A stretch of DNA of 64,000 bases. It comes from Microbulbifer variabilis. GTDB taxonomy: Bacteria; Pseudomonadota; Gammaproteobacteria; Pseudomonadales; Cellvibrionaceae. The notes under the pieces are model-generated. The model searched no databases. It saw only the letters and a program-made list of their open reading frames with translations, and had not been told where the DNA came from. Below, piece after piece: positions 20,926-27,092 of this stretch. The translations under genes were made by a program, and so were the position numbers. How positions within the stretch are numbered: the stretch's first letter is position 1; the number at the start of each line of letters is the position of its first letter. The stretch is from the NCBI RefSeq assembly GCF_023716485.1, contig NZ_CP092418.1, positions 596,001 through 660,000 of the forward strand. Direction: 5' to 3'.

Positions 20926-21192
20926 TTAGGCGGCGAGAGTTTTAACCTGAGCGTTCAGGCGGCTCTTATGACGAGCGGCTTTATTCTTGTGAATAATACC
21001 TTTGTCTGCCATGCGGTCGATAACGGGAACCGCTTCTGCGTATGCAGTTTTTGCTTTTTCAGCGTCGCCTGCATCGATGGCCGCAACTACCTTCTTAATG
21101 TAGGTGCGCACCATGGAGCGCAGACTGGCGTTATGCATGCGGCGCTTGTCGTTCTGGCGCGCGCGTTTCTTCGCTTGAGGTGAGTTGGCCAC
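20926..21192 (-). CDS. rpsT: 30S ribosomal protein S20
   Basis: Small-subunit protein binding 16S rRNA. I place the start at the GTG 21190-21192, giving [17 protein letters not shown] after the initiator (88 aa), the family norm; AGGAGC lies just upstream. The open frame extends 33 codons further but that part is the untranslated leader and promoter. A non-AUG start is common for rpsT and is tied to autoregulation in E. coli. Confidence 0.97.
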
Positions 21193-21335: not shown

Positions 21336-23369
21336 TTAGCGGGTCGGCAGTTTTAGGTTGAACTCCACACCGCTATTATCTGTGCGATTTCGAGCCTCCA
21401 AACGGGCTCGGTGAAAGTCAGCAATCAATTTAGCGATATGCAATCCAAGGCCCAAATGCCCAGCGTTGTCACCTTCCTTACGCACAGATACCAGGGAATC
21501 GAACAGCTTGTGTGCATAGCCATTGGGTAGCAATGGACCGTCGTTACTCACACTAATTAGGTAGCCGTCCTTTTCGTTGTAGACTGCAAGCTGAATCTCA
21601 CTGTGCTTTGGGGCGAAACTACAGGCATTGTCTACCAGCTTATCTAAAAGCTGTGCCAGTAGCTCCGGCGCGCCCTCACAGCGAAGCTCTCCATTTGGCT
21701 TTTTCAGAGAAAATTGGTGGCGGGGGTGGGCGTCGCCATAGCACTGCACCATAACTTCCAGCAGGTCCGCCAAGTCAAAGCGCTCGCGCTCTGCCTGATG
21801 AATGCTGGCTTCCAGGTTGCTGGCCGCAGAGAGGCTGTTGAGGATGCCGGATAGGCGGGCACTGCCATCCAGTGCGCGTTCGGCATAGCGGCGGCTGTCT
21901 TCATCCAGTTTGCCGGTGGAGAGGTTATCGAGTGAAGAGCGCACCACCGCGAGAGGCGTGCGCAACTCGTGGGACAATTTACTGGCGAGGGTTCGCAGGT
22001 ATTGGTGATACTGATCTAGCTCGCCCAGCAGACTGGCAAAGGCACGGTTAAGTGCACCCAGTTCGTCTCTGGCAGAGGAGAGGGGAAAGTTGCCACGCAA
22101 TTTGCCACTGCTGTCGACCGCATTGCGCGCAGCGCGGTGCAGCTTGCGAATGCGCCAAGATAGCCAGCTGGCGTAGCCGAGCAAAAACAGCAGTGCGGTT
22201 GCTGCTGCCGCACAGCTAATCAACCATAACCTGTGTGCGGCGCTATCGGTCATCGACTGCATAGCCTCAGCGGACTGCAACACAAGCACTCGTCCCAGTA
22301 GAGGCCTTTCTACGACTTCGTCAGCCCGAGTTATCACGGGCACACTGACTGCTCCTATACGCGACTGTAGTGGCCCGCCAAACCACTGCTCGGCTGTATC
22401 ACGTCCAATGCCACTGCTTAGCGGCAGTTCATTTTGGGGTAGCTTTGGTAGCTCTTCCCTGGCAAGCAGTTTGCGATAAATCCAACTGCGCAGCCAGGGC
22501 CGCGGTGTGCTCTGCTCCTCAATGGCCACCTGTGATTGGTCGTTACTGGCGAGCAGGAATCCCTCGCTGTCTACGACTGCCAAGCGCAGGTCTGGGCGGG
22601 CAAAGTGGTCCAATTCCGCCTGCAGCTTGGGCAGTAGGGCAACTAAGTGCCCTGGCAGGCCATCGGCGGGAAGGGTGCTGGCACTGTGAACTGGTGGGGA
22701 ACCGTTGCTACTGGTGCGGTCGAGTATTTGAATGGACAGGCTGTCACGTGTGAGTGTGTAGGGAAGGCTGAGCTCTAGTTGATACCCCTTCGGTGAAGTG
22801 GTCCAGCGCCCGCGCAGGCGCAATTCGCGTTGGTAGTTGCCTTCGCGTGGATTGTACCAAAAGGCCTCGACAGGCCCCCGGATCGCCACTGGCAACAGGT
22901 AATGGCGCCCATTGGTAAACAGTTCAACGGTATCCCCTCCGGCGAGCAGATTTGTGCGAGGGTCCCGGTAGGCTGGGGTCTCATCACTTACTGTTAGCAG
23001 TAGGTAGATCTGATCAGCATACTGCCCGAGTGTGATCCGGGCCTGGGGCATGTGCTGCTCATTGAGCAGTTCTCGGGGAGTAAGCTCCCAGGGACGCCAA
23101 TCGTCCCCGTAACCATCTACAACTGGAGGGTGGGAGAGGGGGTTTAAGTAGAGCTGGCTGCCAGGCGGTCTAGCATGGCGTGCGGGATCGGGAGCGATTA
23201 ACTCTGGTGCGCTGGCCAGGCGCGCGGCAATTGCAGCAGCTGTGGCCTCAAGGGCCTGTAGTTGGCCCTGCGCCAGTGCCGCATCCACCTGACGGAGATA
23301 CTGACACCCAGCCCAGGGCAGGGCCAGCGCCACAAGGCTCACCAATAGGAGTTGTCGGCGAAGTTTCAT
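21336..23369 (-). CDS. pdsS: Sortase-system sensor histidine kinase (PdsS-like) with periplasmic carbohydrate-binding-like domain
   Basis: A 677-residue membrane sensor kinase. A signal anchor covers residues 7-20. The periplasmic part (about 75-215) starts [17 protein letters not shown] and resembles the CBM9/DOMON-like fold found in some sensor kinases. A second transmembrane segment lies at 382-402, then a HAMP-like linker, the H-box [13 protein letters not shown] (His467), an N-box ([12 protein letters not shown], about 575-590) and a G-box ([12 protein letters not shown]). This architecture, next to an OmpR-type regulator and an OmpA-like gene, matches the kinase of the proteobacterial dedicated sortase system. 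The ligand is unknown. It lies 49 bp after pdsR. Confidence 0.75.
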
Positions 23370-23418
23370 CTACGGGTCCCCGAAAAGCTGTAGACCGGCT
23401 GCTATGTTGCCGAGGCAA

Positions 23419-24108
23419 TCAGAGCTGCCAGCGATAGCCCATGCCATAGGCTGTACCTATAGCGTTGAATTCATTATCCAGGGCCTGAAATTTTTTGCGG
23501 ATTCTCTTTACGTGGGAGGTGATGGTGTTGTCATCCAGAACTACCCGAGCGGCCTCCATCAACTGACTGCGGGACTTCACATGCCCGGGGCGCTTGGCTA
23601 GAGCGTGGACAATCCAGAATTCAGTGACAGTGAGATCAACTACCCTTCCGTCCCAGTGGCAATGCAACCGGGAAATATCCAATTCCAGCTTGCCCTGGGT
23701 TAGGCTTTCCCCTTCATCGCTCTGGTCGCGCAGTACGCTGACCCGTCGCAGCAGCGCATTGATACGCGCCTGCATATGGGGCAGGGAGATATCCTTAGTG
23801 AGATAGTCGTCTGCGCCGAGGCGTAGTCCCGAAATAATATCCAGTTCGGAATCTCTGGCGGTGAGAAACAGGATTGGCAGACTGGGGGCCATGGCGCGCA
23901 GCTCTCTGCAAAGCTCAAAACCGCCTTCCACTTCACTGCCGAGCCCGACGTCGATTACCGCCAGGTCTGGCAGTCGCTGCCGGAAAGCTTCCATGGCCTC
24001 AATTCTTGCGCTGTAGAGATCGACTCGATAACCGCTGCGGCGCAATGCATCGCGGTAATTTTCGGCGATGGCGCGCTCGTCTTCGACAATAGCGATAGTT
24101 GCACTCAT
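23419..24108 (-). CDS. pdsR: Sortase-system response regulator (PdsR-like, OmpR family)
   Basis: A 229-residue transcriptional regulator. The receiver domain has acidic residues Glu9-Asp10, phosphoacceptor Asp53 (AVIDVGLG) and a late Lys in the LTKDIS stretch. The C-terminal winged helix ends TAYGMGYRW. ATG 24108 is chosen because it gives the standard N-terminus MSATIAIVEDE; the frame upstream is not family-like. It pairs with the kinase gene just downstream, and the OmpA-like gene just upstream completes the trio. Its targets are not known. Confidence 0.8.
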   Translation of the reverse strand: MSATIAIVEDERAIAENYRDALRRSGYRVDLYSARIEAMEAFRQRLPDLAVIDVGLGSEVEGGFELCRELRAMAPSLPILFLTARDSELDIISGLRLGADDYLTKDISLPHMQARINALLRRVSVLRDQSDEGESLTQGKLELDISRLHCHWDGRVVDLTVTEFWIVHALAKRPGHVKSRSQLMEAARVVLDDNTITSHVKRIRKKFQALDNEFNAIGTAYGMGYRWQL

Positions 24109-24169
24109 GGCTGATTCCGGCTGCTTCCTTTGTGGCGGAGAATCATGCACGAAATAGCAGCTTATTGGC

Positions 24170-24194
24170 AAAAAGGCGGGCGCAAATGGCCCGC
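24170..24194 (-). terminator. Rho-independent terminator after pdsO
   Basis: On the minus strand GCGGGC - 7-nt loop - GCCCGC is followed by CTTTTT. It lies between pdsO and pdsR, so the OmpA-like gene can be expressed independently of the two-component genes. Confidence 0.7.
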
Positions 24195-24328
24195 AAGCAC
24201 AACAGGGTTTCTTTCACGGAGGAGAGTTTGTGGCCATATTTTTAATCAGTCCACAGGCGCAATAGCGATTTGAAGTCACCTTGCGCAGCCGAGAGGATTT
24301 GTAGTCCATCACGGCTGTTTAGCAGTTG

Positions 24329-25015
24329 TTAGAAGTGTCCGGCCATGGATTCCGGTAAGGAAAAGCGGATATCTACACGGCGCTCCATGGCGTAGGCGTC
24401 GACATCGCCCTTGGGGGCCTCCGAGTAGGTGGAGCCCATAGCGCGGCGGCTGATGCGGGAGGCGTCAATGCCCAGGGAGATCAGTGCCTGTTCAACACTT
24501 AGGGCACGTTGGTCAGAGAGCACGTTGTTGTAACCATCGCTGCCCCGTGGGTCCGCGTGTCCCTCTAGTTGTATTTGCAGGTGGGGATGGCGTTTCAGGA
24601 AGTCTGCCATGGCATTCAGCTGTTGAAGCTGGGTGGTCTGGAGTTCGTCTTCTCCGGTGGTGAATAGCATCTGGAACTGTAATGAATCCAGTGCCACTTG
24701 GCTGGCATCATTCGCGGACAGTCGAGCCGCATCCAGTTGCTGTGCCAGGTTGCTGAGCTCTGCACGGCTCTCTGTCAATTGTGTTGCCAGCATATCAGCC
24801 TCTTCTGCTTGCTTGACCTGTTCGCCGAGCCAGGCTCCACCGATTGCGCCGGCGATAAACCCGACAGGGCCCCCTACAGCGGCACCGGCAACGGCTGCCG
24901 TGGTAAAGACCGTGGCCTGCTTGGCCGGGGTCAGTTTTGATTCGTTGAGTTCATTCGCCTGGGTACCAGAGGCGATCAGGGAAGTCAGGGCTGCAACCAT
25001 TAATGTTTTTTTCAT
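24329..25015 (-). CDS. pdsO: Sortase-associated OmpA-family protein (PdsO-like)
   Basis: A 228-residue envelope protein with a signal peptide of about 20 residues (cleavage after GTQA). A glycine-rich hydrophobic segment follows (about 38-65, AAVAGAAVGGPVGFIAGAIG), then a coiled coil (about 68-105), and a C-terminal OmpA-like peptidoglycan-binding domain with LEGHADPRGSDGYN and LSDQRA. A member of this family is known to sit next to the PdsS/PdsR pair in marine Proteobacteria, and function is unknown. AAGGAGAG precedes the ATG. No sortase gene is nearby. A generic OmpA-family lipid- or peptidoglycan-tethering role is the alternative. Confidence 0.75.
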   Translation of the reverse strand: MKKTLMVAALTSLIASGTQANELNESKLTPAKQATVFTTAAVAGAAVGGPVGFIAGAIGGAWLGEQVKQAEEADMLATQLTESRAELSNLAQQLDAARLSANDASQVALDSLQFQMLFTTGEDELQTTQLQQLNAMADFLKRHPHLQIQLEGHADPRGSDGYNNVLSDQRALSVEQALISLGIDASRISRRAMGSTYSEAPKGDVDAYAMERRVDIRFSLPESMAGHF

Positions 25016-25168
25016 TGCTTACTCTCCTTGGGGGCTTTCTTCTTACTCGGTGGGGCTGTGTGTGGCCCGTTTGAGTGCTATTAAAAAGCTCCAAGGAGGC
25101 ACTGGCGTGGCGCAGTGGTGGCAAATCGCTGCGCAATTGTGGCGAAAGATGGCAACCGGTGTGTCCTG

Positions 25169-25306
25169 TTATTTCAGGCGGTGGTAGCGCCGGTCGCGGG
25201 GCGAATCTACGCGGACACGCACACGCTGGGGGCGGGGGCCACGCATTATCGCAATGTAAAGCACAATCGCCAGTGCCAGGGCAATAATCAAAGCGTTAAT
25301 GGTCAT
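25169..25306 (-). CDS. Small single-pass membrane protein, 45 aa
   Basis: A short frame beginning at ATG 25304-25306 encodes 45 residues: a hydrophobic segment (residues 3-20, INALIIALALAIVLYIAI) followed by a very basic tail rich in Arg and Pro (RGPRPQRVRVRVDSPR). GGGGAGAAG is placed well for translation, and TATACT at 25361-25366 on the minus strand is a good -10. I know no family. It lies 153 bp upstream of pdsO on the same strand and divergent from murJ, so it may belong to the pds block. It could be inserted with the basic tail in the cytoplasm. Confidence 0.55.
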   Translation of the reverse strand: MTINALIIALALAIVLYIAIMRGPRPQRVRVRVDSPRDRRYHRLK

Positions 25307-25481
25307 CCTGTCTTCTCCCCGCGCCACCGATTCCGTGGGACGCGTCACTAATTCACAGCTAGTATAGGCTCGTGGGCTCCAGGTCGTAGGAGCATTAAGA
25401 TATCCATCCCTCAATGACTTTTGTGGAATTGCGGTAGACTTGCCGGCCAGCAGATATCGCCCAAATCCAGGAGTCACAGCG

Positions 25482-27092
25482 TTGCCCCAGTCGCCGCCCA
25501 CCCAAGACCAGCCCGTCGAAAAAACCGGTACATCCAGACTCCTGCGCGGCAGCTCGGTGGTGGGGGCCGCAACGATGTTGTCCCGGGTTGCCGGCCTGGC
25601 CAGGGATATGGCCCTGGCGCGCTTTGCCGGGGCTGGGGATGCCGCCGATGCTTTTTTCGTGGCGTTTAAAATCCCTAACTTTTTCCGCCGCTTGTTTGCT
25701 GAGGGCGCCTTTGCCCAAGCATTTGTGCCGGTGTTGGCGGAGTACCGCCAAAAGGGGGGCATTGCTGCAGCACGAGAGCTCAATGATCGCGTCGCGGGAG
25801 CACTCGGCGGTGTTTTGTTGTTGGTTACTTTATTTGGCGTATTGTGCGCGCCTCTGGTGACAGGGATCTTTGCATTTGGCTGGTGGTGGGATGGGAGCGA
25901 AAGGGAAAAGTTTGAGCTCGCCACCGGCATGCTGCAAATTACCTTCCCCTACCTGATGTTGATCTCCCTGGCGGGTTTCACCGGCGCTATTCTGAACAGC
26001 TTTGATCGCTTTGCGATCCCGGCACTGACGCCAATTATGTTGAATCTGGTGTTGATTGGTGCGGCAACTATAGGTACGGCTTGGTTCGATCCGGAGATAC
26101 TGGCCTTGGCTTGGGGTGTGCTTTTGGCCGGAGTGGTGCAATTGCTGTTTCAGCTGCCTTTTCTGGCGCGTGAGGGGTTATTGCCAAGGCCCAAGTGGGA
26201 TTGGAGCCACCCGGGGGTGCGCAAAATTCTGCGCCTGATGGCTCCGGCAATTTTTGGAGTATCGGTCACTCAAATCAGTTTGGTATTGGATACGCTGCTG
26301 GCTTCATTCCTGCCCAGTGGCAGTGTCTCCTGGTTGTATTTTTCCGATCGCCTGACCGAATTACCGCTAGGGGTGTTTGGTGTGGCTGTGGCAACGGTGA
26401 TATTGCCGAGCTTGTCTCGTCTGCACAGCGATGGAGACCCGCGCCGCTTTCGCCATACCCTCGACTGGGCGCTGCGCAGCGTTACCCTTATCTCCCTGCC
26501 TGCGGCGGTAGCCCTTGTGGTATTAGCTGAGCCGCTGTTGACCACGCTATTCCAATACGGCCAGATGCAGCCCAGAGATATGCAGATGGCGGCCTGGTCC
26601 CTACGAGCTTACGCCTTGGGGTTGTTGGCTTTTATGTTGATCAAAGTGCTAGCGCCGGGCTATTTTGCCCGTCAGGATACCTATACACCGGTGCGTTTCG
26701 GCTTGATCGCAATTTCGGCCAAGATGGTGCTGAGCCTTCTGTTTGTTATCCCGCTGAATCATTATTTTAAACTCGGCCATATGGGACTGGCGCTGGCTAC
26801 CGCCTGCCAGGCGGCAATCAACGCCTGGTTACTGTACAAGGGTTTGCGCCGGGATGACGTTTACATGCCTGAGGCTGGTTGGGGGCGATTCCTATTGCGG
26901 TTGATAGCGGCGAATTTGGCGATGGTCGCTGTGCTGATGGGGCTCCTTCACGTCTGGGAAAGTTGGAGTGCCTGGGGCTGGTTTGAACGGGCCTGGCGTA
27001 TGGGTGTAATAGTAGCCGCAGGGGGCTTGGCCTACCTGTTTACCCTGTTTGTGTCAGGCCTGCGCCCACGTCACTTCCGCGCCACCAGTTAA
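25482..27092 (+). CDS. murJ: Lipid II flippase
   Basis: Moves lipid II across the inner membrane for peptidoglycan synthesis (MVF/MOP fold). It shows about fourteen hydrophobic segments, with GAATMLSRVAGLARDMALAR and AFFVAFKIPNFFRRLFAEGA near the N-terminus. I chose TTG 25482 because AGGAG lies 8 nt upstream; the frame continues to another TTG at 25440, and neither choice has an ATG. This leaves a proline-rich tail of about 20 residues before the first helix. It is followed by ribF, as in Pseudomonas. Confidence 0.93.
   Translation: MPQSPPTQDQPVEKTGTSRLLRGSSVVGAATMLSRVAGLARDMALARFAGAGDAADAFFVAFKIPNFFRRLFAEGAFAQAFVPVLAEYRQKGGIAAARELNDRVAGALGGVLLLVTLFGVLCAPLVTGIFAFGWWWDGSEREKFELATGMLQITFPYLMLISLAGFTGAILNSFDRFAIPALTPIMLNLVLIGAATIGTAWFDPEILALAWGVLLAGVVQLLFQLPFLAREGLLPRPKWDWSHPGVRKILRLMAPAIFGVSVTQISLVLDTLLASFLPSGSVSWLYFSDRLTELPLGVFGVAVATVILPSLSRLHSDGDPRRFRHTLDWALRSVTLISLPAAVALVVLAEPLLTTLFQYGQMQPRDMQMAAWSLRAYALGLLAFMLIKVLAPGYFARQDTYTPVRFGLIAISAKMVLSLLFVIPLNHYFKLGHMGLALATACQAAINAWLLYKGLRRDDVYMPEAGWGRFLLRLIAANLAMVAVLMGLLHVWESWSAWGWFERAWRMGVIVAAGGLAYLFTLFVSGLRPRHFRATS

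Follow-up and report, generated by a model that had tools for sequence, protein, structure and literature searches.

A probable split class GN sortase system in Microbulbifer, with signalling and enzyme arms that share a candidate PdsR operator

We analysed a 64-kb stretch of the Microbulbifer variabilis genome (C1:596001-660000; hereafter the window, within which gene positions are counted from its first nucleotide). The genome (G000) comprises 4.86 Mb on one contig, C1. On the minus strand of the window, between rpsT (20926..21192, minus strand) and murJ (25440..27092, plus strand, start codon uncertain), lie the genes of a pdsS-like sensor histidine kinase of 677 amino acids (aa; 21336..23369), the OmpR-family response regulator PdsR (23419..24108) and a pdsO-like OmpA-family protein of 228 aa (24329..25015). 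Upstream of pdsO, on the same strand, is a candidate PdsR operator, GCCATCTTTCGCCACAATT (25135..25153), which consists of two half-sites with a 10-bp period and has one mismatch to the consensus described below. A -10-like hexamer, TTTAAT (25080..25085, minus strand), is situated 49 nt from the operator end.

The first-pass annotation matched this trio to the signalling genes of the proteobacterial dedicated (class GN) sortase module, and the profile comparisons bear this out, although only one of the three proteins passes its curated cut-off. The regulator scored 374 bits against TIGR03787 (cut-off 335.7), the runner-up model being CreB with 181 bits. The kinase matched TIGR03785 (PdsS) over the full profile with 517.9 bits, under the cut-off of 612.2, and its next model was of the CreC type (144 bits). 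The OmpA protein, which also matches Pfam OmpA, reached 103.5 bits against TIGR03789 (PdsO), under the cut-off of 152.2, followed by YiaD with 91.1 bits. The TIGR03785 cut-off was passed in 12 of 144 genomes of the family and that of TIGR03789 in none of the 144. Since the kinase and the OmpA protein score under these cut-offs, they are named PdsS-like and PdsO-like. The window kinase, whose closest match is that of M. variabilis SaN7-12 (90% identity), is the sole full-length TIGR03785 match in the genome, and therefore no second signalling set was seen.

These scores also bear on the view that the locus is an ordinary CreBC-like pair accompanied by a YiaD/Pal-like OmpA protein, with the sortase label arising from a nearest-model effect. 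Two of the three proteins miss their equivalog cut-offs, the runners-up are CreC, CreB and YiaD, and the margin for PdsO is small. CreBC models are indeed second best in NCBIfam for the kinase and the regulator, and the latter is an OmpR-type protein presumably acting on a direct repeat, as CreB does. We nevertheless regard this explanation as extremely improbable, because the margins for the kinase (518 versus 144 bits) and the regulator are wide, the operator is common to the sortase operon, and homologous genes adjoin a sortase in related bacteria. The system differs from CreBC in its CBM9-fold sensor, in the far lower CreBC model scores and in its putative operator, which is unlike that of CreB.

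The sensor region of the kinase (approximately residues 71-250, followed by HisKA and HATPase_c) adopts a CBM9 beta-sandwich fold according to a structure model and comparison with the PDB; the first-pass annotation had described a carbohydrate-binding-like sensor domain. Pfam placed HisKA and HATPase_c above cut-off and HAMP under it, and found no CBM domain in the kinase, so that the CBM9 assignment is one of fold only. In PdsR the recognition-helix stretch, DDNTITSHVKRIRKKF (or a near variant), is nearly invariant in 86 of 102 loci, sortase-less genomes included; the pattern search missed the other 16 loci, and the invariance covers the 86 that were found.

No sortase is encoded within the 64-kb window, as the first-pass annotation had stated. 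Its description of the system as lacking a sortase fails at the level of the genome, while its alternative proposal, that the pair is encoded elsewhere, is correct. A class GN sortase (199.7 bits against TIGR03784, cut-off 158.25) and a VIT-VWA target (762.9 bits against TIGR03788, cut-off 551.65), each the only match in the genome at E <= 0.001, are adjacent, target then sortase, at C1:841613-844572, between purC and aceE and about 220 kb from the trio. The sortase matches PF04203 and contains the motifs HRDTH and TCYPF, the latter with an Arg after it, in keeping with the catalytic His, Cys and Arg of the family. The target ends with a YPSTAT signal, a hydrophobic stretch and basic residues. 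Of 21 Microbulbifer targets, 20 have a sorting signal of the P-x-T-A form and only L104 departs from it; in the scan of target tails, locus L157 yielded no target, and L104, L161 and L270 yielded no signal. All five components of the dedicated sortase system thus have a best match in G000, with the sortase, the target and PdsR above curated cut-offs. In this, and in having one sortase with one adjacent target, the system resembles the known class GN system. It differs in that its arms are about 220 kb apart, a separation that is genus-wide, in the PdsS and PdsO scores under the cut-offs, and in the shared operator described here. A further parallel is found in rhombosortase/GlyGly-CTERM and PEP-CTERM sorting, for which PMC3237569 describes C-terminal sorting signals on VWA/inter-alpha-trypsin homologues. 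Unlike those systems, which employ a rhomboid protease or an exosortase, the present one has a true sortase (PF04203) and an LPXTG-like YPxTA signal.

It had also been proposed that the sortase pair was lost and that the signalling genes were kept for another task. For the lineage of M. variabilis the chance of such a loss is practically nil, as G000 encodes both sortase and target above the cut-offs. The proposal does apply to G076, another Microbulbifer genome, which retains a target remnant with the element, and to 24 other genomes of the family: in total, 25 of 109 family genomes with a PdsS match (E <= 1e-70) have no sortase over the cut-off, and these include seven of the eight genomes of the genus holding Teredinibacter turnerae T7901.

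Several additional features of the enzyme loci were observed. Microbulbifer targets (L003:9613-11997 and L098-L117) have a long, strongly basic tail after the hydrophobic stretch, judged by eye to be longer than in the other genera shown. A 243-aa open reading frame between purC and the target (L003:8533-9264) appears methyltransferase-like by eye and has no Pfam match. A distinct sortase-like protein, with 75-90 bits to TIGR03784 and hence under the cut-off, occurs in G031, G039, G042, G043, G044, G047, G049, G111, G114, G139 and G143; the weak matches in G031 and G039 were not scored as sortase-positive.

The separation of the two arms is a constant feature of the genus. In all 19 Microbulbifer genomes with both arms on one contig, the trio and the sortase are at least 168 kb apart. 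All 32 of the Microbulbifer kinase loci compared, which represent 30 distinct stretches, have the order rpsT-kinase-regulator-OmpA-murJ; within the genus the kinases diverge to 63% identity and their sensor regions to 54%. This identical order rules out a misassembly or an oddity of one strain. Conversely, 20 sortase loci, taken from 20 of the 45 other sortase-bearing Microbulbifer genomes, contain the target and the sortase in every case and the trio in none, and every stretch that was fetched also includes purC or aceE.

Outside Microbulbifer, the trio and the sortase are within about 6 kb of each other in 18 of 38 family genomes that have both (PdsS-positive, sortase-positive, linked and unlinked genomes were tallied by hand from the genome match lists). 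Twelve of these 18 linked loci were fetched, and in all of them the target and pdsR diverge. Three of the 12 (L159, L160 and L166) have rpsT directly behind pdsS, as in Microbulbifer, which suggests that the rpsT side is an ancient location of the trio and that it was the target-sortase pair that relocated. The first-pass annotation took rpsT and murJ to be ordinary neighbours in relatives. In other families of the order the gap is about 200 bp in three of three genomes; within the family itself the two genes were within 1.5 kb of each other in only one of 24 PdsS-less genomes.

The upstream regions of the two arms were read by eye and then tested, and both carry the same direct repeat, GCCAyAwTTCGCCAyAATT, in which the half-site GCCAyAwTT occurs twice with a period of 10 bp. 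When GCCAYAWTTCGCCAYAATT was scored as the consensus with a threshold of at least 16 of 19 positions, the element was present in 33 of 33 pdsO upstream regions (31 distinct) and 21 of 21 target upstream regions (20 distinct), while none was detected in the 33 pdsR upstream regions, the 33 pdsS upstream regions, or shuffled sequences (0/990 and 0/630). Its absence before pdsR and pdsS (0/33 each) rules out a general promoter element. Because the consensus had been seen in both promoter sets, a cross-trained matrix was used. Trained on the pdsO sites, it gave all 21 targets scores higher than the null maximum, and with the reverse training all 33 pdsO regions exceeded that maximum (pdsR and pdsS upstream regions, 0/33); the training sites were located with the common consensus, so this cross-test is not wholly independent.

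The element is rare in its surroundings. At up to three mismatches, the window contains no match besides the pdsO site (0.12 expected), and the target site is the only one in 20 kb around the sortase operon (0.04 expected). At no more than one mismatch G000 has exactly two sites, C1:621135 and C1:841502, and the reversed control gave none. Two further sites at two mismatches lie before a GDPD gene and within an ATPase-like reading frame. When the search (up to two mismatches) was extended to the genus, 47 of the 48 Microbulbifer genomes together yielded 120 sites, compared with 20 matches to the reversed pattern. Among the 120, 47 stand before pdsO (47 of 47 trio genomes; 46 from the profile search plus G100, whose pdsO was under the search threshold), 42 before the target (42 of 46) and one before the G076 target remnant; the remainder comprise 16 before the GDPD gene, three in front of genes that immediately precede the target, and 11 tied to no regulon gene. 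The assignments to pdsO and target were recounted by script. The targets of G080, G101, G103 and G107 had no site before them at up to two mismatches.

The two promoter sets also agree in their geometry. In 29 of 33 pdsO promoters a -10-like hexamer follows the end of the element after 48-49 nt, and in 16 of 21 target promoters it does so after 48-50 nt, whereas in shuffled sequences the first hexamer fell at 44-52 nt in 7/1650 and 5/1050 cases. Two promoters 220 kb apart therefore share both the element and its spacing. The same element at a similar promoter distance in both places makes the system look physically split and yet wired together, and we consider it likely that the trio in the window is one half, the signalling arm, of a split class GN sortase system, and that the enzyme arm about 220 kb away belongs to the same regulon through a shared candidate PdsR operator.

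This arrangement has to be weighed against the idea that the Microbulbifer trio is no longer coupled to the sortase, which would be expressed independently, and that it has some other role in the envelope. The genus-wide physical split would fit such uncoupling, as would the 25 genomes with PdsS and no sortase. It is nonetheless very unlikely: both loci retain the operator and the promoter spacing across a genus whose kinases and sensor regions have diverged to the extent given above, and a sortase without PdsS was found in only one of 85 genomes.

Three lines of comparison connect the element with PdsR. First, in the linked relatives it lies between pdsR and the target, matching at least 16 of 19 positions in nine of the 12 loci (L157 and L166 have 15 and L153 has 13) and all 19 before the target in L154, L161 and L163; in several linked relatives it also precedes pdsO. 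Secondly, sites with no more than one mismatch occurred in 34 of 56 PdsS-positive versus one of 24 PdsS-negative family genomes outside Microbulbifer (Fisher p = 1.1e-6, a value that overstates independence, as the genomes are related; the counts were tallied by hand). This comparison covered 80 of the 96 non-Microbulbifer genomes of the family, all except G009, G023-G025, G027, G030-G033, G050, G052, G057, G060, G118, G120 and G125. G019, which has a sortase and a target and no PdsS, shows no element before the target (best 11/19). Thirdly, PdsR was present in 47 of 274 genomes drawn evenly from the class, and in 14 of the best 30 of these 47 loci the element exceeded the 99% null level in the direction divergent from pdsR; toward pdsR it did so in none of the 30, and 16 loci were without it.

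We read the direct repeat as a candidate PdsR operator, with binding suggested by sequence conservation. It might instead be the operator of another OmpR-family envelope regulator, PdsR being merely retained in the same genomes. Operators of the OmpR family are direct repeats with a period of 10-11 bp, and the element also stands before genes outside the trio and the sortase. We hold this to be unlikely, because the presence of sites tracks PdsS within the family, most linked clusters, and some of the loci across the class, have the element next to pdsR, and the PdsR recognition helix is nearly invariant.

On the assumption that PdsR does recognise the repeat, the following mechanism can be proposed. 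The periplasmic CBM9-fold domain of PdsS may sense a glycan, or something that carries a glycan, in the envelope or outside the cell. PdsS would then phosphorylate PdsR, as is known for these protein families. PdsR in turn would bind the repeat and activate two sigma70-type promoters, those of pdsO and of target-sortase, as conservation and fixed spacing suggest, and the sortase, from family knowledge, would anchor the VWA target. The split itself may have arisen by relocation of one arm, with the operator keeping both arms in one regulon.

Genomes that have PdsSR and no sortase show what else may be placed behind the element. In G076 the trio is present, and the profile searches found neither a sortase nor a target. 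Between purC and aceE (L211:6316-12620) this genome has only a short open reading frame that resembles other targets over its first 60 or so residues (up to 71% identity), and the element still stands before it; this interval is a decayed sortase locus. A tblastn search that used the G000 target as query at E <= 1e-8 missed the remnant, which was found with nearer targets and a looser threshold. In the genus of T. turnerae T7901, seven of the eight genomes have kept PdsS while the sortase is absent. At 13 loci (L231-L239, L241, L243, L251 and L252) the element precedes the gene of a membrane protein of about 490 aa. Eleven of these loci come from sortase-less genomes, seven of them from the genus of T. 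turnerae T7901, and the two sortase-bearing genomes are G122 and G004. In all 13 the gene of the membrane protein is followed by that of a lipoprotein-like protein (about 220 aa), which contains a DTSGTY motif and looks VWA-like; Pfam VWA was below cut-off in two of the four scanned and absent in the other two, and the remaining nine were judged by eye. The one 490-aa protein that was scanned had no Pfam match above cut-off; it has 1720 homologues at E <= 1e-10, and the 120 listed were without a Pfam domain.

Other genes preceded by the element encode alpha-2-macroglobulin, PBP1A, GDPD and polysaccharide deacetylase proteins, as identified by a Pfam scan of representatives (for alpha-2-macroglobulin, one of five such genes was scanned). 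The gene of the GDPD-family phosphodiesterase (C1:125614-126603 in G000; L221:2928-3917), with a site of two mismatches located 83 nt upstream, has a site in 16 Microbulbifer genomes and is a probable third member of the regulon. Neither the GDPD sites nor those of the 490-aa operon have the 48-50 nt spacing; one 490-aa site, in L233, has a hexamer at 46 nt.

Given the element before the 490-aa operon and the alpha-2-macroglobulin, PBP1A, GDPD and deacetylase genes, PdsSR might be an ancestral glycan-sensing envelope regulator with an exchangeable output, the sortase representing one route among several by which a VWA-type envelope protein is deployed under a single conserved switch. The outputs would be the sortase-anchored VIT-VWA protein, the operon of the 490-aa protein and VWA-like lipoprotein in Teredinibacter and relatives, and elsewhere alpha-2-macroglobulin, PBP1A and GDPD. 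We put this forward tentatively, judging its chance of being right to be a little short of even.

Two observations were made alongside. Short target-like proteins stand behind the element at L242, L244 and L247, in genomes without a class GN sortase match (G040, G041 and G058, respectively); that of L244 retains part of the VIT domain, and those of L242 and L247 are target-like by eye only. In the window, the interval that separates the pdsO promoter from murJ contains a minus-strand open reading frame (25169..25306) for a 45-aa membrane microprotein with a basic tail. A tblastn match to it was found in 24 of 32 Microbulbifer loci, and NCBIfam and Pfam scans gave no family match; it probably belongs outside the sortase system.

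Among the titles and abstracts listed by searches of open-licence papers, we found no report of a PdsR operator, a PdsR regulon or a split system. The srtA gene of Shewanella oneidensis presumably encodes a class GN sortase. Its deletion had no significant effect on current density, as reported in PMC8176591, and a 2023 paper (PMC10581121) notes that the role of Gram-negative sortases “remains unknown”.

The function of sortases in Gram-negative bacteria is the open question on which our results bear. They tie a sensor with a sugar-binding-type fold to an output of two promoters, and the candidate operator, with its fixed promoter geometry, allows the regulon to be tested by searching genomes for the pattern. 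They also indicate that missing gene linkage should not be taken as a missing system. Finally, the family offers a series of natural experiments: Microbulbifer, in which the system is split and apparently still wired; G076, in which the sortase is absent, the target decayed and the operator kept; G019, in which the sensor is absent and no element precedes the target; and Teredinibacter, in which the sensor is kept, the sortase is absent in seven of eight genomes and the putative operator stands before another VWA-like operon.

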